Shown one piece after another: positions 37,111 to 52,518 of a stretch of 64,000 bases of DNA; within the stretch, counting starts at the first letter, position 1; every line of letters begins with the position of its first letter. A model generated the notes under the pieces. The model ran no database searches. It was given only the letters and a program-made list of their open reading frames with translations, and was not told where the DNA came from. The stretch covers positions 1-64,000 of the forward strand of contig PKEB01000012.1 of assembly GCA_002863125.1 (NCBI GenBank). Reading direction: 5' to 3'. Origin of the DNA: Flavobacteriales bacterium. Its GTDB lineage: Bacteria; Bacteroidota; Bacteroidia; Flavobacteriales_D; Sanyastnellaceae. The translations under genes were made by a program, and so were the position numbers.

Positions 37111-37125
37111 GTGGTGATGCAATGC

Positions 37126-37977
37126 TTATTCACAGTCGAGCAAGGAGATGATTTCGAAAGGGGGTGGCCCGGGAGGATAGGTAAATCCTTCACGGACGAT
37201 GTAGTACCAAATTTCAGACAACGACTCGCCTTCATTGAGGATGCCTGCGAACAGGTCCTCTGGAATCATCGTGGTTCGGAATTTGCCTTCTCCAATGGAG
37301 GTCAATTTCAATTCGGGGTACGCATATACGTCGGTTTCTGGAGCGTACTCGTAACTCGTGAAGGCGTCGACTTTGCCCAGCAAGTAGATGTAGCAATCGT
37401 CATCGCCCATGTTTTGCAATCCTTCGTACAGCACCTCTTTGGTGTTATCGTAGGTGATGGTCAAGAAATCATCGGGCTCACGCAATTCAGGGAACACGCA
37501 GATGCGAGCAGCGCACAACTGCGGAATGATGTCCACGTGCATGTCTTCCGACTTGGCTTCAAAGCTGAATCCGTCGACGGGGTTGCCGTTTTTGAGCTTG
37601 GCCAAGCACGAGATGCCGCGGGCGAACAGCTGGGGTCCATCGACGCCGTAGTATTCCGTTGGTACAAAGGTCATGGAGTACAATTTCGGCCCCACCTTCG
37701 TCAATTGTTGGTGATCGGCGCTGTTGTCCCAATCGCCATTGCCGGCTGCAGGTCCGGAGGGGTCCCACGTCCACAGGTAAACCGTCGTGTCCGGGAAAGC
37801 GTCCAGGATGGCGGAGAGCCCGTTGTTTTGGATGCCGTCTTCGCTCTGGTTCATATCGATGAACAATGTCAACTCAGAGTTGGCGTCGGTTGGTGAAGGA
37901 AGAACGTATGCCTTTTGAGCGTGGGCCGTTGCGTGCATGCAGGCAAAGGCGAGCAGGGAGAATAAGATCTTCTTCAT
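37126..37977 (-). CDS. Secreted protein in starch locus (possibly DUF4961-like)
   Basis: A 283-residue exported protein (signal MKKILFSLLAFACMHATAHAQ) with beta-rich sequence. Repeated elements such as DTTVYLWTWDPSGP and DDDCYIYLLGKVDAF look like modules that handle sugar polymers in other Sus loci. It may belong to DUF4961, often beside DUF5004 and SusD in Flavobacteriia; I recall this association but cannot verify it. Its ATG overlaps the stop of the preceding lipoprotein gene by one base. It could replace SusE/SusF as a starch-binding protein; this is inferred from position. Confidence 0.55.
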   Translation of the reverse strand: MKKILFSLLAFACMHATAHAQKAYVLPSPTDANSELTLFIDMNQSEDGIQNNGLSAILDAFPDTTVYLWTWDPSGPAAGNGDWDNSADHQQLTKVGPKLYSMTFVPTEYYGVDGPQLFARGISCLAKLKNGNPVDGFSFEAKSEDMHVDIIPQLCAARICVFPELREPDDFLTITYDNTKEVLYEGLQNMGDDDCYIYLLGKVDAFTSYEYAPETDVYAYPELKLTSIGEGKFRTTMIPEDLFAGILNEGESLSEIWYYIVREGFTYPPGPPPFEIISLLDCE

Positions 37978-38477
37978 CAGTTCAGTCGATTGAATTCAAA
38001 CGTGTAAATGTTGGTGGCTGTTCCGCCGCAATCGCGTCGGTATTCGATGGCGAGCTGTTGGTCAAACTCGCGAACCATACCACCGAGGTTGTAAACCAAC
38101 GTATCTGCGGTTGAGAACAACTCGAGGTAGGTGGGGTACAGGTCATCGTCAAAGCCCCATGTGCCGCCTTCACCGAAGTAATTCTTGCCCATTTCCAACG
38201 CAACGGAGTAGGTACGGTCGGCATTGAAGGTCAACTGAAGCGGTGTGACGGTACCGTCGATGTAGAAGGCACTGAGGTCGCGCGTTTCCTTGACGGGGCT
38301 ATTCAGGTCCTGCTGGGTGAAGCTGCTGAGCTCCCACGTGCCCGCCATCCCGGCAACCTTGTCGAATGGATCGCCCAATTCGCCCGTGGATTCAGGCTTG
38401 CACGAATTGAAGGCAATGGCCACAATGGCCAAAATCAATACGGCGCTCAATGAAGTGTATGTGGTATTCATGTTCAT
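37977..38477 (-). CDS. DUF5004-like lipoprotein in starch locus
   Basis: A 166-residue lipoprotein. The signal and lipobox are in MNMNTTYTSLSAVLILAIVA followed by FNSC near residue 25. The remainder is a lipocalin-like barrel opening with AGMAGTWELSSFTQQD and containing LQLTFNADRTYSVAL, typical of DUF5004 and related lipocalin-like families. The ATG at 38477 leaves an 11-base gap after susD. It probably sits on the cell surface with SusCD. The role is inferred from its place in the operon. Confidence 0.6.
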   Translation of the reverse strand: MNMNTTYTSLSAVLILAIVAIAFNSCKPESTGELGDPFDKVAGMAGTWELSSFTQQDLNSPVKETRDLSAFYIDGTVTPLQLTFNADRTYSVALEMGKNYFGEGGTWGFDDDLYPTYLELFSTADTLVYNLGGMVREFDQQLAIEYRRDCGGTATNIYTFEFNRLN

Positions 38478-38488
38478 TCGAAATTGGA

Positions 38489-39853
38489 TTAAAGGCAACC
38501 GCCTTCTTCGTTCAACTCAAAGCCTTGCACGGTGGATTCCGTGTTGGAGAACTGCAAGCTCATGCCTGGACAGTCCCACGCGGCATCGCGGATGGTGATG
38601 TCTTCGCCCATGGCGCCGCGTCGCAGCAACTGGTCAGTCCAGAGCCCTTCACAGGCGGTTTCTTTGCGGAATTCGTCGCGTGCCGCGTCGATGACTTCCT
38701 GCGCCGTGGCAGTTTCACTCAAATCATTGTTGCCTGCGCCGAAAGCTCTGGCGCGAATGGCGTTGATATCGGCAATGGCCGTGGCCAAATCTGAATTCAA
38801 CTCCCCGTGCGCTTCAGCACGGATCAGGTGCATCAACGTCAAGTGAGCGAGGGGTACGTTGAAGTATTCTTTTTCGTTGAATCGATTGATCAGCGCTCTC
38901 GTACCTGCAGTTAACCAGGCTAATCGCCCGTCTCCGCCGCCCGCGAGGCTCATGAAGAAGGCAAAGTCCTCACTGAAGGCCAACTGCGGGCTCGGGTTGT
39001 TGTCCGAACGAAGGTTATCCCGGAACCAAGAGCTGCGGAAGTCATTCGGCATGCTGACGATGCCGAAGACTGTTTCCGTGTTGATGACATCCGTCTCAAA
39101 GCGGTCGAGGTCTTCATCCAAGGTGTAGCGCCCTGAATTGATAACATCGCTCGCGAAGTTCGCGGCTTCCTGGTAATTGCCCATGAGGAAATGGACCTGG
39201 GCCAGGTAAGCACGGGCCGCATCCTGCGTCGCGTAAACCCCATTTTCCACCGGCAGGTTTTCGGCAGCAAAATTCAGGTCTTCCACCACCTGAGCATACA
39301 CAGCTCCGACGCTCGCACGCGGCAGGGGGTCTTGGCTGGGTGCAATGCGCAAAGGCACGCCTGGGTGGCTGTTGTCCGCCGTGTACCCGTAAGGACGTGC
39401 ATACATTTTGACGGCTCCCCAGTGACAGATGGCACGGATGAAACGAGCTTCGGCTTCGAGGCGGGTTCGTTCAGCAGGATCTAAGTTTTCGACGATGTCG
39501 AAATTCTTGATGACCACATTCGATCGGTAAATCGCGTAGTAGAAATCCGTGTAAATGCCGCCATTGATGCCGGTAAAGAACGTGGTCTCCCGGTTGTAAA
39601 CAGCTGTGAAATCCAAGCTGTTGTCGGGCTCTCCAAAATTGGGGCCGCGGAGTTCGTTGACAATTTGGACCCGTCCACCGTAGAGGTTGGCGACAACATC
39701 GTAGTTGCTCACCAGCAAGCGCTGGAGGTCTTCTGCGTCCTGGATGGCGTCTTCCGCGAGGATGACATCCCCGGGTTCAAATTCGAGCAAGTGGTCGCAT
39801 GAGGTCAACCCAGCGGCCAATCCGGCAAAAAGAAGGAGGTGTTTGATGTTCAT
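38489..39853 (-). CDS. susD: SusD/RagB family starch-binding outer-membrane lipoprotein
   Basis: A 454-residue surface lipoprotein that forms the lid of the SusC transporter. The lipobox is GLTSC (residues 15-19). TPR-like helices and the SusD core follow: YYAIYRSNVVIKNFD, RTRLEAEARFIRAICHW, KMYARPYGYTADNSHPGVPL, AARAYLAQVHFLMGNY, and EFRKETACEGLWTDQLLRRG near the C-terminus. It lies 9 bases after susC. Amylases on both sides predict starch or maltodextrin as ligand; the name follows the family rather than proven substrate. Confidence 0.92.
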   Translation of the reverse strand: MNIKHLLLFAGLAAGLTSCDHLLEFEPGDVILAEDAIQDAEDLQRLLVSNYDVVANLYGGRVQIVNELRGPNFGEPDNSLDFTAVYNRETTFFTGINGGIYTDFYYAIYRSNVVIKNFDIVENLDPAERTRLEAEARFIRAICHWGAVKMYARPYGYTADNSHPGVPLRIAPSQDPLPRASVGAVYAQVVEDLNFAAENLPVENGVYATQDAARAYLAQVHFLMGNYQEAANFASDVINSGRYTLDEDLDRFETDVINTETVFGIVSMPNDFRSSWFRDNLRSDNNPSPQLAFSEDFAFFMSLAGGGDGRLAWLTAGTRALINRFNEKEYFNVPLAHLTLMHLIRAEAHGELNSDLATAIADINAIRARAFGAGNNDLSETATAQEVIDAARDEFRKETACEGLWTDQLLRRGAMGEDITIRDAAWDCPGMSLQFSNTESTVQGFELNEEGGCL

Positions 39854-39862
39854 GGTTGCCGA

Positions 39863-42800
39863 TTAGAAGTTGGTGGAAATGGAAAGGGTGAAGGCGCGCT
39901 CTTGAGGCGGCGTCAGGTAGGTGACGTTCGGGCTCATGTTACGGTCCTGTGCGTTTTCGAAGTCACGAACCACCTCCGGATCCAATCCGGGGAAGTTGGT
40001 GATGGTGAAGACGTTCGTTGCGTTCACCGCGATTCGGCAGTTCTGCAAACCGCTGTCCTGGCCCAGCGGGACATTGTAGCCCAAGGTCAAGTTGCGCAGG
40101 CGCAGGTAGGACGCATCGAAAATGAAGAGGCTAGTGTTCCACCAAGGGAAGCCCGAAGGCAAGCTGTAGTTGGTTTCATCAAGCGTCAAACGCGGGTATG
40201 TGGCGATGTCGCCCGGCTGTCTCCAGCGGTCGAGTTTTTCGTCGCGCATATTCCAGCCGGTGACCACACCGAGTTGTCGCTTTGCGGATGAGTCGAAGAT
40301 TTTGGCGCCGATGCTGAAGGTGGCGAGAGCACTCAAATCCCAGTTTCCATAACGGAATGTGTTGTTCATGCCACCAATCAAATCTGGCAGGCCGTCACCG
40401 ACGTACTGGCGGATGTCGTTGTTGTAGTCATAGGTCTCGTTCCCCTCGAGGTCGAGGTAGACAGGCAAGCCGTTTTCCGGATCGACGTGGCTGTGCTCCA
40501 CGAGGAAAAACGATCCGACCGGTCGGCCGACAATGACGCGGGAATCGTTCGTTCCGCCGCTGACAGCATCCGGGGTGTAGTTTCCGATGTCCACCAGTTC
40601 GTTGTAGTTCCGTGCCACGTTCAAGTCGGTGGTCCATTGGAATTTGCCAATGAGGTTCCGGGACTTAATAGAGAGTTCCACACCACGGTTCAAGATGGTC
40701 CCGACGTTGTCCCAGAAATTGGTGAAGCCGGTGCTGGCCGGCGTGCTCACGTTCATCAACACGTCGGTGGAGTATTTGTGGTAAAACACCAACTCCGTAG
40801 TGATGCGATCTTCCAACAACCCCAGTTCAACACTCGCATCGATGGTGCGCGAGGTTTCCCAGCGAAGTGTCGGATTCTCAGGCTGGATGGGGTAGAGGAT
40901 GGAATCGGCAGCATAGGTGATGCCGTTGTTGGCAGCGGAATACGTGCCGAAGCGTGCGTAATCTGGCAACGCTGCGTTCCCGGTGTAACCGATGCTCGAG
41001 CGGACCTTCAAAAAGCTGATGCGCTTGCTGTTGAACCAGTCTTCATCGGAAACGACCCAGCCCGCGGAAAGCGATGGGAAGAAGCCGTACCGGCTTTCGC
41101 GGCCGAAGCGCGAACTGCCATCAACACGAGCAGTTGCCTGGAAGAAGTAGCGATCTTTCAAGGTGTAGTTAACACGTCCGAAGTACGAGAGGAAGCTGTG
41201 CTGTGAGGGTAAATTGATTGTTGTGTTGACGTTGGCTGCGTCCTCCGACAACGAGTCATTTTCGAAAATGGGGCCTTCCACTTGGCCGTAGAATAGGCTG
41301 TAGCCGTAGTTGTCTGTGCGCTGGAATTCACTTCCCACCAAGAAATTCAAGGCTTGGGTGTCATCCAATTCCCAGCGGTAATCTGCCGTGGCACTGTAAT
41401 TCCAGTTCAAGACGTAGTTCGCGTAGCGGTTGGCGCTACCGAGTTCCGTTGTGATGGACAAGGCACCGGGGTTGAAGACGTCCTCGCGGAGGTGGAGGTA
41501 GTCAAAACCGCCACTGACCTTTAGGTTGAGGTTTGCAATGGGTGAGTAGATCAACTGCGCATTGCTGATGGAGCGGTCTTCGGTTGTTTTCCACTTCTTC
41601 AATTCACGAACGGCCACCGGATTCTTGGTTCCGCCCCATTCGTCAAACCACAAAAAGTACTCGCCGGCCTCGTGCTCGATGTTGCCGTTGGCGTCGTAGA
41701 CATCTTCATCGTAGCGAACAGGGTAGTAGGGAAGGGCGTTCGACATGGCGTCGCCCAAACCGCCTGACCAGGCGGCATCGATGCGGTTATTCTCGCCCCG
41801 GCTCAACGAAGAGCTGAGGAGGACCTTTACTTTGCTCAAAGGGCTCCAGTCGAGGTTGATGCGTCCGCTGGTGCGGTCGTAGCTGTTGCCGAGGAGGAAG
41901 CTTTGGTTGTTATCCTTGGAGAATCCTGCGTACAGATTGTATTTGTCGCCCCCTTGTCTTACGCCAAAATTCACAGCATTCTTGTTGCCGACGCCAATGG
42001 TCTGATCGACCCAATCGGTGTTCGTCTCCATGGCCCTGAGGTAGGCTTCTCGCCGGGTGGCGGGGTCATCTGCTGCCGAGCTCATATTCGGCAACCAGAC
42101 GTATCCGGTGCCGCCGTCGTTTTCCCAAGCCTCTTGGCGCAGGGCCAAGTAGGTTTCCGTGTCCATCATATTGGGACGCGTAGCAGCGGCGCCGATGCCA
42201 GCGCGCGTGCTAAATTCGAACGACGTGCCCTTCTTTCCGCGCTTGGTCGTGATGAGGATGACGCCGTTGGCGCCGCGCGAACCGTAAATTCCAGTAGCCG
42301 CCGCGTCCTTGAGGATTTCAACGGATTCGATGTCGTTGGGGTTGATGGCGGCCAGCGGATTGTTGTTGAGGGCGCCGCTGTTGCCGCGGAGGAAGTACTC
42401 CTGGGTGATGGGGATGCCATCGACAACGTACAGCGGATCTCCAGCTGCTGATACCGAGGCCACCCCACGAACGCGAATGAGGGAAGGTGCGCCGGCGACA
42501 CCCGATGATTGGCTGACTTGAACACCCGCCGCTTGTCCTTGAAGCGCTGCCTCAAATGACGGTGTTTGCACCCCAGTGATTTGCTTCGAATCGACTTTGA
42601 CAATGCTGCCCGTGACTTCCTTTTTGCGTTGAACGCCGTAGCCCACAACGACTACGTCTTCAATCAGGACTGCATCGTCGGCGAGGGAGACGTTCAATGT
42701 CTGGTCTTCGGTGCCCATGGTCACTTCCTTCGTTTGGCTGATGTAGCCGATGTAGGAAAATTGGACCGTGTGGGTGCCCGGTGATAGGCTTAAAACATAC

Positions 42801-42964
42801 GCACCGTCAGCGTCTGCAAATTGCCCGTTGGTACCATCGGCAACGACGGATGCGCCGGGAAGTGGATTGCCTTGAGCATCTGAAATCGTACCGCGCAGGG
42901 ACTGGGCCTGTAGCGTGCAGTACATGCCGAGAGTGGCAATCAGCGTAAGGGTGAATTTGGTCAT
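39863..42964 (-). CDS. susC: SusC/RagA family TonB-dependent transporter
   Basis: A 1033-residue outer-membrane importer. The signal peptide is MTKFTLTLIATLGMYCTLQAQ. A carboxypeptidase-regulatory-like domain covers about residues 22-100 (GTISDAQGNPLPGASVVADG). The plug has the SusC hallmark LYVVDGIPITQEY and SVEILKDAAATGIYGSRGAN, then a 22-strand barrel ends RAFTLSISTNF. The ATG at 42964 starts exactly at the signal peptide; an earlier in-frame start would read through the promoter and operator. Upstream lie a TTG/TACCTTCG promoter and the 17-base element shared with the regulator gene. Confidence 0.95.
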   Translation of the reverse strand: MTKFTLTLIATLGMYCTLQAQSLRGTISDAQGNPLPGASVVADGTNGQFADADGAYVLSLSPGTHTVQFSYIGYISQTKEVTMGTEDQTLNVSLADDAVLIEDVVVVGYGVQRKKEVTGSIVKVDSKQITGVQTPSFEAALQGQAAGVQVSQSSGVAGAPSLIRVRGVASVSAAGDPLYVVDGIPITQEYFLRGNSGALNNNPLAAINPNDIESVEILKDAAATGIYGSRGANGVILITTKRGKKGTSFEFSTRAGIGAAATRPNMMDTETYLALRQEAWENDGGTGYVWLPNMSSAADDPATRREAYLRAMETNTDWVDQTIGVGNKNAVNFGVRQGGDKYNLYAGFSKDNNQSFLLGNSYDRTSGRINLDWSPLSKVKVLLSSSLSRGENNRIDAAWSGGLGDAMSNALPYYPVRYDEDVYDANGNIEHEAGEYFLWFDEWGGTKNPVAVRELKKWKTTEDRSISNAQLIYSPIANLNLKVSGGFDYLHLREDVFNPGALSITTELGSANRYANYVLNWNYSATADYRWELDDTQALNFLVGSEFQRTDNYGYSLFYGQVEGPIFENDSLSEDAANVNTTINLPSQHSFLSYFGRVNYTLKDRYFFQATARVDGSSRFGRESRYGFFPSLSAGWVVSDEDWFNSKRISFLKVRSSIGYTGNAALPDYARFGTYSAANNGITYAADSILYPIQPENPTLRWETSRTIDASVELGLLEDRITTELVFYHKYSTDVLMNVSTPASTGFTNFWDNVGTILNRGVELSIKSRNLIGKFQWTTDLNVARNYNELVDIGNYTPDAVSGGTNDSRVIVGRPVGSFFLVEHSHVDPENGLPVYLDLEGNETYDYNNDIRQYVGDGLPDLIGGMNNTFRYGNWDLSALATFSIGAKIFDSSAKRQLGVVTGWNMRDEKLDRWRQPGDIATYPRLTLDETNYSLPSGFPWWNTSLFIFDASYLRLRNLTLGYNVPLGQDSGLQNCRIAVNATNVFTITNFPGLDPEVVRDFENAQDRNMSPNVTYLTPPQERAFTLSISTNF

Positions 42965-42983: not shown

Positions 42984-43015
42984 CGAAGGTAAGGTGTGGT
43001 AGGTGTATTTTCAAC
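42984..43015 (-). promoter_or_regulatory. Candidate susC promoter
   Basis: On the minus strand GTTG (43015-43012), a 20-base spacer and TACCTTCG (42991-42984) resemble the -33/-7 pattern with one mismatch in each box. The predicted start gives a leader of about 15 bases before the ATG at 42964. The -33 box lies inside the 17-base putative operator. Confidence 0.5.
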
Positions 43016-43017
43016 AC
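43001..43017. promoter_or_regulatory. Putative operator copy 1, upstream of susC
   Basis: AGGTGTATTTTCAACAC, containing GTGT-N7-ACAC dyad symmetry. It is identical over all 17 bases to 48885-48901. It overlaps the -33 element of susC, so binding would affect initiation. The proposed binder is the Nudix-type regulator encoded at 48136-48849; this is inferred. Confidence 0.6.
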
Positions 43018-43035
43018 GAAGTGCTTCGGTAGTTG

Positions 43036-45858
43036 TCAACGGTTGTTTGAAAGCACCACGCGGGCAGTGAATTGTTGTTTTTCGGAACGGACCTGTACGG
43101 TGTACACGCCTTCCGATAACGTGTTGTTAACGAATTGAATAACATGTTCTTGGTGCTGGGAAGCAAGTGCGAATCCAGCTGTTACCTCGCGGCCATTCAG
43201 GTCAAAGATTTGCACAGAATTCAGGTCCACTTTCTCGGGGAATTCAATAGCAAACAGTCCCGCTGAGGGATTGGGATACGCCGCGGCATTTGACCGAACG
43301 ATTGTTGGCTCAGCGATGGCAGAGGGGAAATTCACAGGTTGGTCCACGTACACGTGGTATTCACCAGGGGCAAACGACATGAAGGCGCTTACGTCGGTTA
43401 CCTCAATCGCCTCGCCTGTGAAGTAATCGTACCACGTCCCCGTGTGCTGGAATCCGGGAATCATGCTGAGTTCACTTACGCGGAAATTGGCGACCACCAC
43501 GGCGTCCATGCTGCTGCCGTTGAGGTGCAGGCGCTTGCCATAGCCGCCTACATCCCAATTGTAATTGGTGCCTTGGAAAGGATCGGGGTAGTCCATTTTG
43601 AGTTGGCACAGGCCGGCAATGACTTGGTGGATGCGGTACCGATTGGGGTTGTCGCGGTAATCCCAGCGCACGGGTTTGGCTTGCGTACGGCAGTCGTCGC
43701 TGATGGTCACGCCGTCACTGCAAGTGTTGATGCTGTAATCGTACCCGAGTTCTTCAAATTGCCAGAGCAACTTGGGACCGGGCAGCAGAATGTTGAAGCA
43801 TTGAATGGCTTCTTGGCGTGCAAGGGCCGTGTTGAGGTCGGTCACTTGGTAGGAGCCTTCGCCATTGCCGTATTGCAAAGCCTTGTACATCAGGCGTTCT
43901 TCGTCATGGCTCTCCGGGTAGGAGACGACGCCCGGGTTCGACATGCTTTGGTTTTGGTAGCTCGCCCAGGCAAAATCGGATGGGTACCCCATGGAGGCTT
44001 CGTTGTACTCGTGCGTCACATTCGCCCACACCATGAATCCATCGTTGACCAGGGTTTGGTTTTCGGACAGGTCTACCCAGTGTTCCAGCACCATGTAGAC
44101 GTCGGATTCATCTTGCCAGAGGTGGTTGGCGTATTCATTGAGCAAATTGATGCGAGCTTGGTCGTAGCCCCACACGTTGCCCGGGGTTTGGGTCATGCCT
44201 TTGGAAAAGTCGAGGCGGTAGCCGTCGATGTGGTATTCATCAACCCAATATTTCAAGGCGCGTTTCATGAAATACTTCGTGGCGGGACTGTCGTGGTTCC
44301 AATCGAAGAACCATGTTTCCGGACTGGGCGAAACTTCATTGAACCACGGGTTGTTCGCAGCAGGCTGGAAGGACGAAGCATTCCAGTACATCTTCAAAAA
44401 CGGATTCGGGTAATCGGCATGGTTGAGCACCACATCGAGGAGCACTGCAATGCCGCGTTCGTGGCAAGCATTGACCAGTTGCTTGAACGTTGATTTGTCC
44501 CCGTATGCCTTGTCGAGCGCAAGGTAGAAGGTGGGGTTGTATCCCCAACTGTCGTTGCCGTTGAACTCATTGACAGGCATAAATTCAATTGCGTTGATGC
44601 CCAAGCGATCGAGGTAATCAAGGGTGTCAAGGATGGTCTGGTAGTTGCGCTCGTCGGTGAAATCGCGCACCAGCAATTCGTAAATCACCAGCGACGATTT
44701 GGCCGGTCGCTCAAAGTCCTGATCGGTCCAATTAAAATCCGGCGCGCCGGGTTGAAGGACGGACACCGGTGTGTTTTCAGTGAGCATGTTGGGGAATGCC
44801 GGCATGTCGGGGTATGTCTCCTCGGGGATCCATTGGTCGTTCCAGGGATCAATGACCAATTCCGTGTAGGGATCTGCCACGCGCATGTCGTCGGGCATGA
44901 TGTGGTAATGGAAACGGTATTCAGTTCCGGCTTCCAAGCCATCAATTTCAATCCAGTGCTTGTTGCCATCCGGAGTTTGGGTCATGAGGTAATCAAAACT
45001 CAATTGCCAGTCGTTGAAGTCACCCACCACGAAAACGAATTCCTTGCCCGGTGCGTGCAACTGCAAGAAGGTGCTCGTACTCGATGGGTAATGAATCCCG
45101 TCCTCAGAACCCGCGGGTGGCCATCCGGTGATGGGGGAGTCGGGCAACACAGTAATGCTGGCTTCATCCGACGCGGAACCCGCATCGGTCGTGCCGACTA
45201 AGGCGATGTTGAATTGTCCGGCGTCGTTGGCTTCGAAATCGTATGACAGGGACGTGCCCGTCACGGTGGTGACTACCTCTCCGTTGATTTCCAAGCTGAG
45301 TTCGCAGGATTCGCTCGCTTGGCCGAGGATGGTGTAGCTGTCCCCGAGGTCGAGTACCGCGTATCCGTTCTCTGGAGTCTGCAACGATGTGCTGAACGAT
45401 CCGCTACTGACTTCGTAAAAGATGTCGGAACCGTCTGCATTTCGTCCCACCAAAGTGCCGCTGCTGTTGCGGAAGACCATGGCCAAGCTCTCGACGGTTT
45501 CACCTTCGTCGAGTTGGTAGTAGTCGCTGAGGGTCAATCCATTGAAATCAAAAGTGTGGATTCCGTTTCCTTCCGGGTTCAGCAAAGCCAATGAGTCTGA
45601 AGTGCCCCAGGCGGTCTGCACGTTTTGCCAATCGCTCGGCCCGCTTGAATTGCTCGTGATGACCCCTGTGTGGATGTAAACGGGAATGACCCCTTGCAAT
45701 TCACCATTCCCCAGCGCACTGTTGTAGTACAGTGTGACTTGATCGTCCACGGTCGGGAAGGCGGGTTCGGTCCACACCAATTGTCCGTGCAGCAAGCTTG
45801 GAATGAGGATGCACAATGAGATGAAAAAACAGCTGTTGAATGGGCGGTGCGTGTTCAT
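43036..45858 (-). CDS. T9SS-exported GH13 alpha-amylase
   Basis: A 940-residue secreted amylase. Signal peptide MNTHRPFNSCFFISLCILIP, then N-terminal beta domains (about residues 25-240), and a CBM48-like module near 262-340 (VFVVGDFNDWQ). The GH13 barrel runs from about 385 to 760: region I LLDVVLNHADYP, region II YRLDFSKGMTQ (Asp nucleophile), region III MVLEHWVD (Glu), region IV YPESHDEERL (His-Asp). A T9SS type A signal ends it (AAYPNPSAGLFAIEFP). All catalytic residues are present. It is coupled by ATGA overlap to the upstream cotH gene and lies before the susC operator. Confidence 0.93.
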   Translation of the reverse strand: MNTHRPFNSCFFISLCILIPSLLHGQLVWTEPAFPTVDDQVTLYYNSALGNGELQGVIPVYIHTGVITSNSSGPSDWQNVQTAWGTSDSLALLNPEGNGIHTFDFNGLTLSDYYQLDEGETVESLAMVFRNSSGTLVGRNADGSDIFYEVSSGSFSTSLQTPENGYAVLDLGDSYTILGQASESCELSLEINGEVVTTVTGTSLSYDFEANDAGQFNIALVGTTDAGSASDEASITVLPDSPITGWPPAGSEDGIHYPSSTSTFLQLHAPGKEFVFVVGDFNDWQLSFDYLMTQTPDGNKHWIEIDGLEAGTEYRFHYHIMPDDMRVADPYTELVIDPWNDQWIPEETYPDMPAFPNMLTENTPVSVLQPGAPDFNWTDQDFERPAKSSLVIYELLVRDFTDERNYQTILDTLDYLDRLGINAIEFMPVNEFNGNDSWGYNPTFYLALDKAYGDKSTFKQLVNACHERGIAVLLDVVLNHADYPNPFLKMYWNASSFQPAANNPWFNEVSPSPETWFFDWNHDSPATKYFMKRALKYWVDEYHIDGYRLDFSKGMTQTPGNVWGYDQARINLLNEYANHLWQDESDVYMVLEHWVDLSENQTLVNDGFMVWANVTHEYNEASMGYPSDFAWASYQNQSMSNPGVVSYPESHDEERLMYKALQYGNGEGSYQVTDLNTALARQEAIQCFNILLPGPKLLWQFEELGYDYSINTCSDGVTISDDCRTQAKPVRWDYRDNPNRYRIHQVIAGLCQLKMDYPDPFQGTNYNWDVGGYGKRLHLNGSSMDAVVVANFRVSELSMIPGFQHTGTWYDYFTGEAIEVTDVSAFMSFAPGEYHVYVDQPVNFPSAIAEPTIVRSNAAAYPNPSAGLFAIEFPEKVDLNSVQIFDLNGREVTAGFALASQHQEHVIQFVNNTLSEGVYTVQVRSEKQQFTARVVLSNNR

Positions 45859-48143
45859 CGCAGAAGGATTTTATGGGTTGTCGTGCCGGCAGGGGCTTCG
45901 GTGGTAAGCAGGTAGAGGCCTGCCGCATATCCATGGATTGAAATGACTGCATTTGGGAATTCTCCGACCACGTGTCCGCTCATGTCGCGCAAGGTGCCGT
46001 GAGCAGCGGGAGGGAGGGAAACCAAACACGGTTGATTGCAAAGGGTTGGGATCACCACGGTAGGGTTGATTTGATTGCCCAAATGCACCGCGGTTCCATT
46101 GGCGCCGTTGGGCGTTGGTGGGTTGGAGGAGTTGGGGTTGAACCACACCCATTCCGGTGCAGCGTCGGTCATGCGGCCGTAACTAAAATCACCGATGGCG
46201 TCGGTCCAGTCAATCGCATCAACACCCCGCCAAATTTCATCGTCCTGGATGAAGAGGTACACTTCATCTTCGCCGCCAGCCAGCGTGAAATTGGCGTGCA
46301 GCGGACCAGCCTCTGTGTTGTCGTCGCACCAGATGAGCAAGTGCTGCCCGGGCTCCAACGTGACACTTGGAAGCGGCCATCGCCAAGGTTCCATGCGCCG
46401 GTTGCTGAGAAACATTCCATTGCAATTGTAGGGTACGTCTCCAGCGTTAATGAGCTCGACCCAATCTCCATCGTTTCCGTTTTCATCCGTAGCGAATCCG
46501 TCGTTGATGGGCATCACTTCGTTGATTCGGATGGGGTGGTCGGCAAATGTGCTCCAGACCCGGGTCATCGCACAGGGCGAATGGTGGATCGCACCAGCAG
46601 GGTCTGTGATTGCGGCCTGCCAGAAGACATCTTCCGCGCCGTTGAGCGGGACGATGTGTGTCCAGCCATATCCGTGCAATCCACCACCTGCGGGATTGAG
46701 CGCAACGGTCTCGACGTTGCCGTCCTGATCGATGGTTGCCTCCACATTCCAACCGGTCGGCTCGGTCAATTCGTGTGCCCAGCATTCGATGCGCAGCGAA
46801 TCATTGAAGACCGGCCCTTCTGCCCAGCACTGCACGATTGGAACGACGTCGGTCGGGATGGGGTCGGACTGGATTTCGGCCCAAAAAATTCGAGAATTCG
46901 CATAGTCCAGCGGAGAATGTGCCACGTGGTTGCCCCAGGCATCCATGATGGAATTTTCGAAATCTGCAGCATCAAAACCGTAGCTCTGCGGGTAGTATTC
47001 GTCATCCTGCACCGCGGCGATCAACAGGTCAACCAGCCATGTTCCACGCGCCTCGATCCAATCGGCGGTGTAGTAGGCATCCATCCACCAATGGATGTAC
47101 CATGTAAACCGGTCGCGGTACGACTCCACTTCCAAGAGGCGCGTGTACAGCGCACGGTCGTTTTCGGTCGTCCAGCTGTAAATGTCCTGGTCGGTCCACT
47201 CGCCAAACCACTGAATGCCCGCAGTGTTGTCCATGTCGTACGGGATGTACATCAGCCGTCCGTCCGTGGTGCGTTCATAGAGGTAGAAGTTGTTTTTGTT
47301 GCCGATGTAATTGTCCCAGTGTCCAAACAGGATTTCACCTGCGGCCGCTTTGAGGTAGGCGTCCACATCAAAAATTGCTTCCAACGCACATGGCAGTTCG
47401 TCCAAAGGCGAATTGTTCAGTACATCGATGAACTCGGCGAGGCTGCTGTAATCGTCATTGACTTGGTTGGTCTTCAATTCGTAGACGCGTTGGTCGGACC
47501 AGCTGGGGGTGAATTTGTAGGCGTCCGGGTTGTCGCTCACGAAAGCGAGGTTGGCCGGATACGTGCATTTCCACAAGTTGCCGTGTGCATGGTCGAACCG
47601 CTTTTCCAACCATTCGCCATCGATGTGCTCCGTGTTGGAATACAGCCCGAAATAGTCGCCGTTGATGAAGAGCTTGACATGGGTGCTGCGGGAGACGGGA
47701 ACCCCAGCGTCACGCAGGCATTCCCAAGCCAGCCGAGCGCGCATGGCGCTTGGGTCGTTGTGCTCCCCGTTGAGGTTCATCTTCTTCAATTCTTCCCACG
47801 TTTGATCGGGGTCGAAGGTGTTGAAGGAGATTTTGTACGACTTTTTGGGGGCGGCGCGCGAAGTATTTCCACGCAGGCGAAAACCGACGTTTTCAATGGT
47901 GTCTGTCCCGAGGGGGCTGACGTACACAAACACTGCGGGGTGCTCGACGTTGGAGTACCAGTTTTCTTGCTCGAGCATCCAATCCAATTGATCACACGTC
48001 ACGTGGACCTCCGGCAGGGCTTCGCTTAGGTAGGCTGTGCCGTCCAGTGGATGCCAGTTGATTCCAATTTCCTGAGCGGACGCAGCAAGAGCGCCGCACA
48101 GGCCAAGCAACACCCCAAGCCACTGTTGCGTGCCTTTATGCAT
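45855..48143 (-). CDS. Secreted CotH-kinase-like protein with lamin-tail domain and probable T9SS signal
   Basis: A 762-residue exported protein with signal MHKGTQQWLGVLLGLCGALA. The CotH kinase-like fold covers about residues 50-390: FRLRGNTSRAAPKKSYKISF, KKMNLNGEHNDPSAMR, then the conserved HWDNYIGNKNNFYLYE and YIPYDMDNTAG, where the Asp/Asn residues bind metal and ATP in CotH. A lamin-tail domain lies near 545-660 (INEVMPINDGFATDENGNDG). The C-terminal segment (ISIHGYAAGLYLLTTE) looks like a T9SS sorting end. ATG 48143 is chosen over a TTG at 48149. Finding this family in a starch locus is unusual; its substrate is unknown. Confidence 0.82.
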   Translation of the reverse strand: MHKGTQQWLGVLLGLCGALAASAQEIGINWHPLDGTAYLSEALPEVHVTCDQLDWMLEQENWYSNVEHPAVFVYVSPLGTDTIENVGFRLRGNTSRAAPKKSYKISFNTFDPDQTWEELKKMNLNGEHNDPSAMRARLAWECLRDAGVPVSRSTHVKLFINGDYFGLYSNTEHIDGEWLEKRFDHAHGNLWKCTYPANLAFVSDNPDAYKFTPSWSDQRVYELKTNQVNDDYSSLAEFIDVLNNSPLDELPCALEAIFDVDAYLKAAAGEILFGHWDNYIGNKNNFYLYERTTDGRLMYIPYDMDNTAGIQWFGEWTDQDIYSWTTENDRALYTRLLEVESYRDRFTWYIHWWMDAYYTADWIEARGTWLVDLLIAAVQDDEYYPQSYGFDAADFENSIMDAWGNHVAHSPLDYANSRIFWAEIQSDPIPTDVVPIVQCWAEGPVFNDSLRIECWAHELTEPTGWNVEATIDQDGNVETVALNPAGGGLHGYGWTHIVPLNGAEDVFWQAAITDPAGAIHHSPCAMTRVWSTFADHPIRINEVMPINDGFATDENGNDGDWVELINAGDVPYNCNGMFLSNRRMEPWRWPLPSVTLEPGQHLLIWCDDNTEAGPLHANFTLAGGEDEVYLFIQDDEIWRGVDAIDWTDAIGDFSYGRMTDAAPEWVWFNPNSSNPPTPNGANGTAVHLGNQINPTVVIPTLCNQPCLVSLPPAAHGTLRDMSGHVVGEFPNAVISIHGYAAGLYLLTTEAPAGTTTHKILLR

Positions 48144-48849
48144 TTTCAATCTGATCGGGATTGAAGCTGAACAGCTGGGCAGGCTTGTGCATGACGCCTT
48201 GTTGCTTCTCGTCGAGCGGAACCACGTGGCTCATTTTCTTGACGTTTTTCCGGAAATTCCGCTTGTCGAACTTTTTGTCCAGCACGGTTTCATACAAGTC
48301 TTGGAGTTGGCTCAAGGTGAATTTCTTCGGGAGCAATTCAAAACTGATGTGGTGGGTTTCCAATTGGGTTTGCAGCGCTTCGATGGCTCCATTTAAAATG
48401 CTGTTGTGGTCAAATGCGAGGGGACCGACTTCGTTGACATCGACCCAGCTGACCCCACCCGCGAAAGAGGCAGGTTGCGGAGAATGGTCATGGAGGCTCA
48501 CGAGTCCGAAGTAGCCTACCGTAATGACGCGCTGATCGGGTAGAGTACGCACAGATCGAAGCCAAGTTCTATCCTTGTGGTCTTTCACGCGGTCGGGGTC
48601 TCCATAGGCATGGAATTGTTTCAAATACACGCCGTTGACTTGGGTCAGCTCGAACAGCACCCGCTCGGCAGCGGCCTCCAGCCCTTCGTCAATCAGGATG
48701 AGGTCGCCCGGAAGCTGCGACATGGGACGTCCCTGTGCATGGGCATAGGTGTCTTCTTTTTGATTGATCAACAGGACCTTAAGGCCATCGTCATCGTACC
48801 CGAAAAGAACACAATCGACGGAAAGGTGCAAGGACTCATTTGGTTGCAT
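48136..48849 (-). CDS. Nudix-fold transcriptional regulator (NrtR-like), candidate starch-locus regulator
   Basis: A 237-residue protein with an N-terminal Nudix-like domain (about residues 1-150) and a C-terminal winged helix (about 160-230, FTLSQLQDLYETVLDKKFDK, RNFRKNVKKM). This is the layout of NrtR and of the Bacteroides sugar regulators AraR and XylR. The Nudix box region LPGDLILIDEGLEAAAERV keeps a Gly and Glu, but the catalytic REUxEE core reads RVLFEL, so hydrolysis is unlikely and ligand sensing is expected. It is the first gene of the minus-strand starch locus and diverges from pfkA. Identical 17-base elements precede its own promoter region and susC. Confidence 0.85.
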   Translation of the reverse strand: MQPNESLHLSVDCVLFGYDDDGLKVLLINQKEDTYAHAQGRPMSQLPGDLILIDEGLEAAAERVLFELTQVNGVYLKQFHAYGDPDRVKDHKDRTWLRSVRTLPDQRVITVGYFGLVSLHDHSPQPASFAGGVSWVDVNEVGPLAFDHNSILNGAIEALQTQLETHHISFELLPKKFTLSQLQDLYETVLDKKFDKRNFRKNVKKMSHVVPLDEKQQGVMHKPAQLFSFNPDQIENA

Positions 48850-48850
48850 A

Positions 48851-48865
48851 GTGTCAAAAGTACAA
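48851..48865 (-). promoter_or_regulatory. Regulator promoter: exact -7 box inside a weaker operator-like site
   Basis: The minus strand reads TTGTACTTTTGACAC. It holds an exact TAnnTTTG (TACTTTTG, 48862-48855) ending 5 bases before the regulator ATG, with TTTA at the -33 position. The same 15 bases match the operator core GTGTATTTTCAACAC at 11 positions, suggesting possible autoregulation. Confidence 0.45.
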
Positions 48866-48884
48866 TAAACCCCATTGGGAATAA

Positions 48885-48901
48885 AGGTGTATTTTCAACA
48901 C
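48885..48901. promoter_or_regulatory. Putative operator copy 2, between the regulator gene and pfkA
   Basis: AGGTGTATTTTCAACAC, identical to 43001-43017, with GTGT-N7-ACAC symmetry. It lies 36 bases upstream of the regulator start and 82 bases upstream of pfkA on the opposite side, so it could control either or both directions. Confidence 0.6.
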
Positions 48902-48982
48902 TTAGTATGGGATTGTGTCATTTCAGGTGTTAACTTCGCGGCCGTTCCGTACAAAACCGGAACATGAGACTAGAGCGTTCAA

Positions 48983-49954
48983 ATGAAGAAAATCGCAGTA
49001 TTAACGTCGGGCGGTGATGCACCTGGAATGAATGCTGCCATTCGCGCAGTGGTGCGGACAGCAGTTTATCATGGATGCGAGGCGGTGGGTGTTTTCCAAG
49101 GGTATCAAGGATTGATTGATGGCGACTTCAAGCGGCTGCATGTACGTTCGGTTGCCAAGATCCTCGGTCGAGGCGGCACCATCTTGAAGTCTGCGCGTTG
49201 TGAAACATTTAGAACCGAAGAGGGCCGCCGCAAGGCGCACCAAGCGTTGCTTGAGAATGAAGTGGATGCGTTGGTGGTCATTGGAGGAAACGGAACGTTC
49301 ACAGGGGCCATGCTGTTGGCAAGAGAAACGGGCTTCCCCATCATCGGCTTGCCGGGAACCATTGACAATGATTTGTCCGGTACGGATTTCACCATCGGCT
49401 TTGACACGGCGACCAATACGGTTGTCGAGGCGGTCGACAAAATCCGCGACACGGCCGACAGCCATAACCGGTTGTTTTTTGTTGAGGTCATGGGCCGAGA
49501 CAGTGGCTTTATTGCGTTGAATACAGGCATTGCAACGGGTGCTGTAGCGGTCATGACGCCGGAATCAGGATTGTCCATTCAAGACTTGGTGGACATTCTA
49601 AATTTGGGCCAAGCATCGAATAAGACGTCGAGCATTGTCATTGTCGCAGAAGGTCACCCGGAAGGCGGCGCATTTGAAATCGCAACCAAGGTGCATGCCA
49701 TTGACAACAAATACGAGACACGTGTCACCGTTCTGGGGCACTTGCAACGCGGCGGGGACCCCAGTTGTGCGGACCGCGTGTTGGCATCGCGCATGGGTGT
49801 CGCAGCTGTCGAAGGATTGCTCTCCGGTAAAAAGTCCGTCATGGCGGGGGTGGTGAACGACCAATTGGTGTACTACCCGTTCGAAGAAGCTGTGATCAAC
49901 AAAACGGCCACCTTGGAAGACGAGGTCCGCATTGCAAAAATACTCTCCATCTAA
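48983..49954 (+). CDS. pfkA: ATP-dependent 6-phosphofructokinase
   Basis: A 323-residue glycolytic enzyme phosphorylating fructose-6-phosphate. It opens [19 protein letters not shown] (ATP-binding), with catalytic [14 protein letters not shown], substrate MGRDSG and C-terminal [17 protein letters not shown]. The motif GGDGS of E. coli reads GGNGTF here. Gly at the position that discriminates ATP from pyrophosphate is kept, which favours ATP; the Asp-to-Asn change appears common in this phylum. It heads a five-gene plus-strand operon with gapA, a sugar kinase, pgmB and a GH65 enzyme. Confidence 0.95.
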
Positions 49955-49976
49955 CCGAATAGAATTTAACCCTACT

Positions 49977-50960
49977 ATGAAAAAAATTGCCATCAATGGT
50001 TTTGGCCGAATCGGCCGACTGGCCTTCCGTCAAATGTTGGACCGCAGCGACCTCGCGGTTGTTGCCATTAATGACTTGACTGATGTCGACACCCTTGCGC
50101 ACTTGCTGAAGTTTGACAGCATCCACGGACGATTCAACGGAACGGTTGAAGTCGCCGGTGGAAACCTGGTTGTCAACGGTTCGACCATCAACATTTCGGC
50201 TGAGCGCGATCCGTCGAACCTCCCATGGGGTTCCCTCGGCATCGATGTGGTTGTGGAATCGACCGGTGTGTTTACGAGCAAGGAGAAGGCGGGCTTGCAC
50301 CTCGAAGCCGGTGCAGGCAAGGTGGTCATCTCTGCACCTGCGAAGGGTGAACTCAAGACCGTGGTATTGGGTGTGAACGACGACATTTTGACCGCCGACG
50401 ACCGCATTGTTTCCAATGCCTCATGCACTACGAATTGCTTGGCGCCGATGGCCAAGGTGTTGGACGATGAGTTTGGTGTGGAGCATGGCTTGATTACCAC
50501 CATCCACGCCTACACAGCAGACCAGCGCATTCAGGATGCACCGCACAAGGACTTGCGCCGAGCGCGGGCCGCTGCGTTGAGCATGATTCCAACGTCAACC
50601 GGTGCGGCTAAGGCAGTCGGATTGGTATTGCCGCAGTTGGCCGGCAAGTTGGATGGCCTTGCGGTGCGTGTTCCCACGCCCACGGGTTCGGTCACGGATT
50701 TGACGGTGATCCTCAAGCAGGAAGTCACTGCAGAGCAAGTCAATGCTGCAATGCAGCGCGCCTCATCAGGTGCGATGAAAGGGGTGCTCGAATACTCCAC
50801 GGATCCGCTCGTTTCGGTGGACATCGTCGGTAACCCACACAGCTGCATCTTCGACTCAGGTCTCACGAAGGCCATGGGCAAGACGGTCAAAGTCTTTGGC
50901 TGGTACGATAATGAGGCCGGCTATGCCACCCGTGTAGCTGACTTGGTAGAGCGACTGTAA
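49977..50960 (+). CDS. gapA: Glyceraldehyde-3-phosphate dehydrogenase, type I
   Basis: A 327-residue NAD(P)-dependent enzyme of glycolysis. N-terminal dinucleotide fold [16 protein letters not shown], catalytic Cys in [12 protein letters not shown], and the His-containing [14 protein letters not shown]. Further signatures are [20 protein letters not shown] and the C-terminal [15 protein letters not shown] 49977 follows pfkA by 22 bases and gives the standard N-terminus. An in-frame start at 49932 would overlap pfkA and adds 15 unrelated residues. Its place in a maltodextrin operon links uptake with lower glycolysis. Confidence 0.96.
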
Positions 50961-50984: not shown

Positions 50985-51845
50985 TTGAAAATCTTAATAG
51001 CAGACAGCGGTTCCACCAAGTGCGACTGGATGGTGATCGATGAGCAGGGGAATGCCCTGTCGGAATTTCACACCATGGGATTCAATCCCTATTTCCACAA
51101 TGCGGACTTGGTGGAATCTAAAATGCGCGAAACCAATGAAGCGATGGCCCTCGCACCAGACGTGTCGAAGGTGTACTTCTATGGAGCTGGTAGCAGCTCT
51201 GAAGCGTTGTGTGCCATCATTCGGGAAGGATTGGAACGCGTTTTTACCGCAGCAGATGTGCATGTCGGGCACGACCTCGACGGAGCTGCATACAGCACGT
51301 ATGCTGGGGATCCGGCAATTACATGCATCATCGGGACAGGCTCGAACTCTTGCTATTTCGATGGGAAGGTGACTTCCGAAAAAGTTCCCGCGTTGGCTTA
51401 CATTCTCGGCGATGAGGCTAGCGGTTCGTGGTTCGGTAAGCGATTGTTGGCCCTCCACCTCTACCACAAGTTGGATCCAACCGTGGATGCGGATTTTGTG
51501 AGCACGTTTGGTTTCAGCAAGGACGACATTGTCAATCGGGTGTACCAGGAACCAAACGCCAACGTATTCTTGGCGTCTTTCATGACGTTCATTGGTCGTC
51601 ACCAAGAGGTGCCACAGATTATCTCCTTGCTGGAGGAAGGTTTCCAAGCCTTCATCGACGTGCACGTCAAGTGTTACCCCAATTACCGTGAAGTCCCGGT
51701 TCACTTTGTCGGTTCCGTCGCGTACCATTTTCAGCCTGTGCTCCGCCATGTTTGCGAGCGAGAAGGCATCGAGGTTGGGCAGATCATCAAGCGCCCAATT
51801 GACGGCTTGGCGGACTACCATGTCAAGTACATTTTGAACGATTGA
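50985..51845 (+). CDS. BadF/BadG/BcrA/BcrD-type sugar kinase (N-acetylglucosamine kinase-like)
   Basis: A 286-residue ASKHA-fold kinase related to eukaryotic N-acetylglucosamine kinase. The N-terminal phosphate-1 motif is ADSGSTKCDWMVID, phosphate-2 lies in CIIGTGSNSCYFDG, and the adenosine motif is in VHFVGSVAYHFQPVL. ILGDEASGSWFGKRLL is family-specific. The start codon is TTG (50985), 24 bases after gapA; no in-frame ATG fits. In this operon the free glucose released by maltose phosphorolysis would need a kinase, so a glucokinase role is a reasonable inference, but GlcNAc is equally possible by homology. Confidence 0.82.
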   Translation: MKILIADSGSTKCDWMVIDEQGNALSEFHTMGFNPYFHNADLVESKMRETNEAMALAPDVSKVYFYGAGSSSEALCAIIREGLERVFTAADVHVGHDLDGAAYSTYAGDPAITCIIGTGSNSCYFDGKVTSEKVPALAYILGDEASGSWFGKRLLALHLYHKLDPTVDADFVSTFGFSKDDIVNRVYQEPNANVFLASFMTFIGRHQEVPQIISLLEEGFQAFIDVHVKCYPNYREVPVHFVGSVAYHFQPVLRHVCEREGIEVGQIIKRPIDGLADYHVKYILND

Positions 51846-51848
51846 CCA

Positions 51849-52502
51849 ATGAGGGACATTCACGCATGCATTTTCGATTTAGATGGTGTGATTGTCGATA
51901 CGGCATCCCATCACTTTGTTGCATGGCGTCGCCTGGCCGATGAGCTCGGTGTTCCCTTTTCATCGGAAGACAATGAAGCCCTGAAAGGAGTTTCAAGGGT
52001 GGATAGCCTCGAGTACATCCTGAACAAAGGGGGATTGGTGCTCGATCCGGCCACTAAGGTGCGCCTGATGGACCGCAAAAATGCCCACTACCTTAAACTC
52101 GCGGGTAAGACTTCGCCAGCAGATGCGCTGCCCGGCGTTGTGGAATTGATTGATAGCCTGAAGGAGCAGGGCTTGAAAGTGGCCTTAGGATCTTCGTCAA
52201 AAAACGCCGAAATGATCCTGACCCGGTTGAATTTGATTGATCGCTTTGACGCGTTGGTCGATGGCAACCACATCACCCTTTCGAAGCCCGATCCGGAGGT
52301 ATTCATCAGTGGAGCGAAAGCCTTGGGCATCCCGCCTGAGCATTGCCTTGTTTTTGAAGATGCGCAGTCCGGCATCGATGCCGCCAACGCAGGCGGATTC
52401 CCGGTCATCGGAATTGGAAACACGGAAGCTCTGACGAAGGCCGTAGCGGTGATTCCCGGATTTGGCGACTACACATGGGACAGCATCTGTGCCCTTTTGT
52501 AA
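51849..52502 (+). CDS. pgmB: Beta-phosphoglucomutase
   Basis: A 217-residue HAD-superfamily enzyme converting beta-glucose-1-phosphate to glucose-6-phosphate. HAD motif I is FDLDGVIVDTA, with nucleophile Asp10 and acid/base Asp12. Motif II is ALGSSSKN, the Lys is in TLSKPDPEVFI, and motif IV VFEDAQSGIDAA. The cap domain has LKGVSRVDSLEYIL, close to the LKGVSRxxSL signature of beta-PGM. It lies 3 bases after the kinase gene and 16 bases before the GH65 gene, whose product it would consume. Confidence 0.94.
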   Translation: MRDIHACIFDLDGVIVDTASHHFVAWRRLADELGVPFSSEDNEALKGVSRVDSLEYILNKGGLVLDPATKVRLMDRKNAHYLKLAGKTSPADALPGVVELIDSLKEQGLKVALGSSSKNAEMILTRLNLIDRFDALVDGNHITLSKPDPEVFISGAKALGIPPEHCLVFEDAQSGIDAANAGGFPVIGIGNTEALTKAVAVIPGFGDYTWDSICALL

Positions 52503-52518
52503 CCAGCATTTGATTGAC

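Follow-up and report, generated by a model that had tools for sequence, protein, structure and literature searches.

Could a single DNA element join the capture of starch to the catabolism of glucose in a Flavobacteriales bacterium? The question is raised by a 64-kb stretch of genome (the window: the whole stretch analysed, positions 1 to 64,000 of contig PKEB01000012.1), in which the same 17-base palindromic sequence lies both in the leader of susC and beside the gene for a Nudix-fold regulator, in the gap that separates it from pfkA. Marine Flavobacteriales are large consumers of algal polysaccharide; to our knowledge little is known of how the capture of polysaccharide is linked to central metabolism in these organisms, and SusR, hybrid two-component systems and extracytoplasmic function sigma factors have been described for single polysaccharide loci. 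We propose that the palindrome is the operator of the adjacent regulator, which would act as a sugar-released repressor joining starch, maltose and glycolysis genes, and we put the probability of this proposal at roughly 0.78. It has three supports: the regulator and the site are conserved together, the site recurs at functionally linked promoters, and the recognition helix is identical to that of BtAraR (BT0354), the L-arabinose repressor of Bacteroides.

Both copies of the 17-mer, AGGTGTATTTTCAACAC, are exact (43001-43017 and 48885-48901), and nothing else in the window comes within three mismatches. Chance predicts a mean of 0.15 occurrences in the window, and two or more copies appeared in 2 of 100 shuffles. 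The 15-base core, GTGTATTTTCAACAC, occurs exactly only at these two places in the 2.27-Mb genome, with three further places at two mismatches. A first-pass annotation had described the element as a GTGT-N7-ACAC dyad overlapping the -33 box of susC in one gap of the locus and lying between the regulator gene and pfkA in another, and this description holds: the -33 TTG is inside the first copy, 20 nucleotides from the susC -7 box TACCTTCG, while the second copy is 38 bp from the start of the regulator gene and 82 bp from that of pfkA and, to judge from its divergent setting, can serve both. The weaker copy that had been noted over the regulator's own -7 box is also present. Allowing one arm mismatch at most, 12 of the 17 genus leaders have such a copy, and in 11 of them it lies 35-36 bp from the main site; its conservation is confounded because the same bases are promoter. 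The bare GTGT-N7-ACAC pattern is found twice in the window against 1.3 times expected and hence is not rare alone. Because of this, the evidence has to be sought in placement and conservation.

Conservation in orthologous leaders was the ground on which the first-pass annotation had staked its proposal, together with the element not recurring at many unrelated genes. Among 112 distinct leaders of regulator relatives from Flavobacteriales and Bacteroidales, 88 contain GTGT-N7-ACAC: 34 of 38 from related genomes (17 of 17 within the genus) and 54 of 74 from named contigs. With any spacer from 3 to 6 or from 8 to 11 bases the same leaders give 0-2 matches, and a Markov control gave a mean of 0.54 and a maximum of 3 (113 leaders, with L120 still counted). 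When leaders sharing a 60-mer were removed, 84 of 107 retained the site. L120 was dropped from the set of 112 as it lies on the same contig as L071; also left out were L042, L051, L093, L129 and L144 (cut off), L075 (a paralogue) and L091 and L092 (duplicates). The named-contig relatives are the best 80 of at least 559 candidates, and second copies and weaker matches within genomes are not included. Where susC lies behind an amylase gene its leader carries the site in 16 of 25 cases (10 of 15 in the genus, 6 of 10 outside). The conserved unit is TTAGTGT-N7-ACACTAA, in which the arms are kept while the seven bases between them change from one species to another; the logo of 77 sites from outside the genus reads TTAGTGT-A/T-rich-ACACTAA. 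The identical 17-mer, although truly present twice, was accordingly dropped as the operator unit, since spacers differ between species.

The distribution of the motif over the genome concerns the second of these grounds. Exact matches to GTGT-N7-ACAC number 16 in the genome of the window, and 10 of them are promoter-placed, compared to 2 of 25 for the reversed control CACA-N7-TGTG; without a match in a tRNA gene the comparison is 9 of 15 to 2 of 25 (Fisher p 0.0007). The six coding matches are likely to be due to chance. Equivalent promoter-placed fractions in other genus genomes, which include the tRNA match and were counted without the reversed control, are 9 of 10 (G015), 9 of 14 (G010) and 13 of 24 (G018). 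In four of four genus genomes the arms are kept at pfkA, at pdhA (with pdhC behind) and at a gene for an AMPK1_CBM protein; in three of four they are kept at the regulator, susC, a sugar MFS transporter and a CBM48/CBM20 type IX secretion system (T9SS) protein. A CBM protein gene beside the MFS gene has a site in three of the four, the window's genome being the exception, a TonB receptor and one further gene (L248/L262) have one in two genus genomes each, and a VTC-domain gene opposite pdhA is also among the shared places. Sites L082 and L084 and the GH3/GH2 site L087 were seen solely in the window's genome and are likely chance. A match at an aldehyde dehydrogenase gene (L079, L210, L247, L263) has the best-conserved letters of all; it was rejected, as it lies inside a tRNA-Gln gene. 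There is thus no clear sign of spread to many unrelated genes: apart from the VTC-domain, TonB, L248/L262 and tRNA cases, the shared places are at starch, transport, glycolysis and pyruvate genes.

A search of 60 relatives with the motif alone retrieved promoters of pgi, pyk operons, amylase, CBM48 and susC-type genes. Twenty places outside the locus were inspected; eight are at glycolysis, starch or susC-type genes, three at genes for LNS2-like proteins, one at a phosphoenolpyruvate carboxykinase gene and one at a glutamate dehydrogenase gene, and at the other seven (L213, L215, L219, L221-L224) no sugar gene was recognised or the place was not scanned. For pgi and pyk, 27 genomes were examined. 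A pgi gene was identified in 11 of them, every one of which has the regulator, and five of the 11 have the site. The pyk operon carries the site in 8 of 17 genomes with the regulator and in 0 of 6 without it, setting aside L330 and L333 for insufficient upstream sequence (Fisher p 0.058, a value that is not independent as some of these genomes prompted the test); all eight sites are 440-463 nucleotides upstream of pyk. At two loci with no pfkA within the stretch, L103 and L146, sites are found in the gap between regulator and gapA and upstream of zwf, which in L103 is followed by pgl, edd and eda as an Entner-Doudoroff operon and in L146 was scanned alone.

The search also brought up places of another kind. 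An LNS2-like protein of about 140 amino acids (L227:2017-2442, L229:2513-2941, L231:2604-3026), 67-81% identical across three genera, has the palindrome 3-49 bp upstream of its gene. A link between this gene and pyk was considered and rejected: the genes preceding pyk (L216, L226, L228) and the LNS2-like genes are two unrelated families. Palindromes upstream of glutamate dehydrogenase (L225:2582, G044) and phosphoenolpyruvate carboxykinase (L220:2574, G051) mark possible further targets.

The first-pass description of the protein beside the sites as NrtR-like is confirmed by Pfam matches to NrtR_WHD (4.2e-25), AraR_C (4.2e-10) and NUDIX (1.2e-06), all above their cut-offs; with an N-terminal Nudix domain and a C-terminal NrtR winged helix the regulator belongs to the NrtR family. 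Two further traits of that family, an impaired Nudix signature and a palindromic operator (here a predicted one) close to its own and its target genes, are seen as well. Its closest solved structure by sequence is BtAraR (5bs6, 3.7e-33), with which it shares 35% identity. The AlphaFold model (mean predicted local distance difference test score 85.4) has its best fold match in BtAraR too (5dd4, Z 24.7, root mean square deviation 2.6, 215 residues aligned), followed by SoNrtR (3gz5, Z 21.0). Like that of AraR, the Nudix box has degenerated: the segment corresponding to the signature RE-U-x-EE, taken from the accessible text of PMC4666351, is R63 V64 L65 F66 E67 L68. The recognition helix, DKRNFRK, is identical to that of BtAraR, and the DNA contacts K179, R180, N181 and K184 of BtAraR are K196, R197, N198 and K201 in the regulator (residues were compared by eye with those named in PMC4666351, using a numbering offset of +3 derived here). 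The arabinose contacts R86 and H131 correspond to R87 and H148, which are invariant in 43 of 43 relatives. The full set of AraR sugar contacts is not retained, R34 being replaced by Q30; of the 43 relatives, 23 have R and 15 have Q at this position. An extra helix (91-100) lies within an insert absent from AraR, with D93 present in 41 and W96 in 42 of the 43 relatives.

The position of the site relative to the promoter provides information on the direction of control. In 22 hand-picked promoters we measured the distance between the site and the -7 box, using TTG/TAnnTTTG, which we take to be the promoter form of Bacteroidetes and by which the susC -7 box was recognised. The -7 box starts 8-19 nucleotides after the site centre in 11 (susC and the MFS transporter of the window's genome, amylase, CBM48, two zwf and five pfkA outside the genus) and 18-19 nucleotides before the site in two, both pyk operons. 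Because these 13 sites overlap the promoter, and because BtAraR, the nearest relative with a solved structure, releases DNA on binding L-arabinose (accessible text of PMC4666351), we favor a repressor released by a sugar. A homodimer would bind the two GTGT half-sites and block RNA polymerase at susC, at the sugar transporter, at the operon of pfkA, gapA, kinase, beta-phosphoglucomutase and GH65 genes, and at its own gene. Uptake of starch would supply a glucose-type molecule (glucose, maltose or glucose phosphate: our guess, which fits the shared targets) that would fill the Nudix pocket, turn the winged helices and free the DNA. In this way starch capture and maltose phosphorolysis would be coupled to glycolysis and to the oxidation of pyruvate. 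The targets would shift with the route of the host, being genes of the Embden-Meyerhof-Parnas pathway or, at the two loci without pfkA nearby, zwf of the Entner-Doudoroff pathway.

A number of findings weigh against this proposal. Nine of the 22 promoters are unfit for a blocking position: the spacing is 26 nucleotides at susC of G028 and, in the window's genome, 32 at the regulator, 37 at pfkA and 69 at pdhA, and five promoters have no recognised -7 box; a -33 TTG stands at a fitting distance in few. Our confidence is slightly lowered because of these nine, and at spacings of 26-69 nucleotides activation or a block from a distance is possible. The exact site is missing from 24 of the 112 regulator leaders and from 9 of the 25 susC leaders, although at three of these nine loci (L056, L059, L061) it stands ahead of the amylase or CotH gene instead. 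In the genome as a whole the exact motif is rarer (16) than its reversed control (25), and for the extended palindrome with up to one mismatch the counts of motif and control are 24 and 15 in the 15 genomes of the family that lie beyond the genus, and 8 and 14 in the 22 genus genomes. Only part of the family has the sites at pgi and pyk. In the protein, H221 and K222 take the place of the BtAraR wing contacts K204 and R205.

The same protein and operator could, conversely, serve activation, by recruiting RNA polymerase just upstream of the -33 element. The regulator/pfkA operator of the window's genome, which precedes the -7 boxes by 32-37 nucleotides, and the pdhA site, which precedes its own by 69, are where an activator might be expected; set against these, the 13 sites that lie within the span from -33 to -7 or cover the start, and the sugar-induced loss of DNA by BtAraR, make activation unlikely. 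A different objection concerns the signal: a regulator of the nicotinamide adenine dinucleotide (NAD) type would sense adenosine diphosphate ribose (ADP-ribose) or NAD and tune glycolysis to the NAD state. Family and fold agree with this, glycolysis and pyruvate dehydrogenase are NAD-linked, and 23 of the 43 relatives retain R where SoNrtR has R41. In the window protein, however, the SoNrtR contacts R41, K76 and R98 are replaced by Q30, L68 and D105 (SoNrtR residues mapped onto BtAraR as in PMC4666351, accessible text), the match to the NCBIfam ADPR-repressor equivalog NF050029 scores 94.4 bits against a cut-off of 400, and no NAD-synthesis gene is among the identified targets. Going by the replaced contacts and the score below cut-off, the protein would not be an NrtR in the strict sense; ADP-ribose appears not to fit the residues, NAD-type ligands look unlikely, and we hold this explanation to be improbable.

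It is also conceivable that the site is genuine and is read by another factor, for which a second NrtR-like protein is the obvious candidate: the paralogue L075:8726-9412 in the window's own genome (G000:C26) has an NrtR_WHD domain and the same DKRNFRK helix. Yet no exact operator occurs in the 13.4 kb surrounding the paralogue, its neighbor, identified by eye, is a metK-like gene, and six family genomes with a single NrtR-like match (G022, G025, G028, G032, G034, G036) nonetheless carry the site beside the regulator or pfkA; we rate this alternative as very improbable. Chance, finally, would make the two copies unconnected instances of a common 8-base motif. The bare motif is indeed expected 1.3 times in the window, and one shared match is a tRNA D-stem, but 88 of 112 leaders at spacer 7 alone, compared to a Markov mean of 0.54, already refute the idea, and the probability left to it is negligible. 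As for the paralogue itself, it gives no NUDIX match at E 0.001, and similar matches occur in many genus genomes.

The features of the locus are collected in Table 1. On the minus strand the order is regulator, CotH-like gene, T9SS amylase gene (GH13), susC, susD, the DUF5004 and DUF4961-like genes and the second GH13 gene; on the plus strand it is pfkA, gapA, BadF-type kinase, beta-phosphoglucomutase and GH65 genes. By the known chemistry of such enzymes, starch would be cut and imported, GH65 would phosphorolyse maltose to glucose and glucose-1-phosphate, and both would be converted to glucose-6-phosphate, which enters glycolysis via PfkA and GapA. Maltose is taken as the GH65 substrate because the beta-phosphoglucomutase gene adjoins. 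That the BadF-type kinase is a glucokinase is a guess; at L131 a ROK/glucokinase gene stands beside gapA in its place.

Table 1. Genes, predicted operators and promoter elements of the starch locus (window coordinates).
Feature	Position	Strand	Basis
Regulator gene, 237 amino acids, degenerate Nudix domain and NrtR-type winged helix	48136..48849	-	Pfam, PDB sequence match, AlphaFold model
CotH-like protein with lamin-tail domain, overlaps regulator gene	45855..48149	-	Pfam CotH 1.9e-50, LTD 1.3e-09
GH13 alpha-amylase with T9SS sorting domain	43036..45858	-	Profile searches
susC	39863..42964	-	TIGR04056 1e-217
susD-like	38489..39853	-	SusD-like_3 and SusD_RagB
173-amino-acid protein, DUF5004	37977..38498	-	Profile search
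283-amino-acid protein, DUF4961-like	37126..37977	-	26.8 bits, below cut-off 27.1
Second GH13 alpha-amylase with AMPK1_CBM	34708..37122	-	Profile search
pfkA	48983..49954	+	TIGR02482 8.6e-123
gapA	49932..50960	+	Gp_dh_N and Gp_dh_C
BadF-type sugar kinase	50985..51845	+	PF01869 1.2e-05, below cut-off
beta-phosphoglucomutase	51849..52502	+	TIGR01990 1.2e-68
GH65, maltose phosphorylase type	52462..54816	+	Profile searches; substrate inferred from beta-phosphoglucomutase neighbor
Operator 1 (predicted), GTGT-N7-ACAC, susC leader, includes -33 TTG	43003..43017	.	Exact; promoter spacing
Operator 2 (predicted), GTGT-N7-ACAC, divergent regulator/pfkA gap	48887..48901	.	Exact; orthologous gaps alike
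Weaker copy, 11/15 bases, 7/8 arm bases, over regulator -7 box	48851..48865	-	Pattern match
susC -7 box TACCTTCG	42984..42991	-	Pattern TAnnTTTG
Regulator -7 box TACTTTTG	48855..48862	-	Promoter pattern
pfkA -7 box TAACTTCG	48931..48938	+	Promoter pattern

Several further observations concern the leaders and the gene order. In the window (48850-48862), as in the genus leaders, the regulator -7 box ends about 5 nucleotides ahead of the ATG, a hint that the mRNA is leaderless. The sequence TTCGC-nn-CCGTTC (window 48930-48948), which stands right at the -7 box of pfkA and just beyond it, is kept in most genus leaders; a structured 5' leader of pfkA was considered and rejected, as an alignment of 17 genus leaders yields no consensus fold, and no Rfam family scored above cut-off between 34000 and 56000 of the window. 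The CotH-like/lamin-tail gene between regulator and amylase is found in the genus and in several family genomes (L036-L064).

The relationships of the regulator were explored with a quick maximum-likelihood tree of 63 rows, with support from the Shimodaira-Hasegawa-like approximate likelihood ratio test only. One clade of 30 rows (support 99) consists, with the exception of L142, of regulators that adjoin pfkA, gapA, BadF or GH65 genes; a second of 16 rows (97), mostly Bacteroidales, has 10 that adjoin GPH symporter and GH94 genes, six of these with GH9. Smaller groups with BadF or GH65 sit between the two, AraR is apart, together with AraR-like second copies, and SoNrtR and the paralogue are long branches of unsure placement. 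Because of these neighbors the branch seems to be tied to the phosphorolysis of glucose disaccharides, in an alpha and a beta version. Relatives with GPH/GH94 neighbors, some with GH9 (L143, L148, L149, L152, L155, L159, L162), are probably regulators of cellobiose or beta-glucan use; GTGT-N7-ACAC is present in the leaders of L143, L152, L155, L159 and L162 and absent from those of L148 and L149.

Taken at its widest, the proposal would make the regulator the master switch with which Flavobacteriales govern glucose catabolism. Until glucose is signalled, it would repress the genes for capturing starch, for transporting and phosphorolysing maltose, for both the upper and the lower part of glycolysis and for pyruvate dehydrogenase; in some lineages it would have been re-aimed to the Entner-Doudoroff pathway and in Bacteroidales to cellobiose phosphorolysis (GH94/GH9). 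We lean somewhat towards this wider view. A single operator motif extending from starch capture to pyruvate dehydrogenase would make the regulon readable in uncultured genomes, and testing the question would take no more than a single purified protein and a DNA of 15 bp.

How does such a system compare with those already known? The first-pass annotation had supposed a Nudix-regulator regulon in a starch locus and had thought a Nudix-fold regulator of starch use to be new. The regulon is supported, and its predicted extent is wider than starch; the novelty lies in the pathway and in the broader, more central predicted regulon, as Nudix-fold sugar regulators of the type are known. The accessible text of PMC4666351 describes AraR and XylR as NrtR-type sugar regulators in Bacteroidetes and predicts AraR to control susCD operons, and the terms starch, maltose, glycolysis and Flavobacteri have zero occurrences in it. 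A literature search, from which most subscription journals were out of reach, found no regulator of the NrtR or Nudix type for starch or glycolysis.

The regulator resembles BtAraR in fold, domain order, degenerate Nudix box, DKRNFRK helix and operator, the centre of the BtAraR crystal operator reading GTGT-N7-ACAC (Table 2 of PMC4666351, accessible text), and also in its predicted targets, susCD operons and a matching catabolic operon. It differs in forming a separate clade in the quick tree, in the extra helix 91-100, in Q30 for R34, in predicted targets that are starch, maltose and glycolysis genes, and in not lying beside arabinose genes (araMPRDAB). BtXylR (BT0791), compared by its description in the same text, is likewise a predicted sugar regulator of the NrtR family in Bacteroidetes, but for xylose. 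SoNrtR, an ADP-ribose-binding regulator of NAD metabolism, shares the fold and the NrtR winged helix and is set apart by the ADP-ribose contacts and NCBIfam score discussed above. The NrtR fold would thus have moved among NAD, pentoses and, we infer, glucose, with one DNA code kept in common with AraR. SusR of Bacteroides also controls a starch sus system, as predicted here for the regulator; however, SusR is an activator and a membrane protein with a periplasmic sensor, and its direct repeats are predicted at a spacing of 67 or 77 bp (PMC3878776, accessible text), whereas the window protein has 237 amino acids and Nudix and winged-helix domains alone (the scan contained no SusR model). In placing glycolysis, the Entner-Doudoroff pathway and neighboring genes under a single factor the predicted system is closest to HexR and CceR of Proteobacteria, which belong to the RpiR and LacI families and to another phylum (PMC5507952, accessible text); if the proposal is true, the regulator would be to Bacteroidota what CggR, Cra, HexR or CceR are to other bacteria, with a fold unlike theirs.

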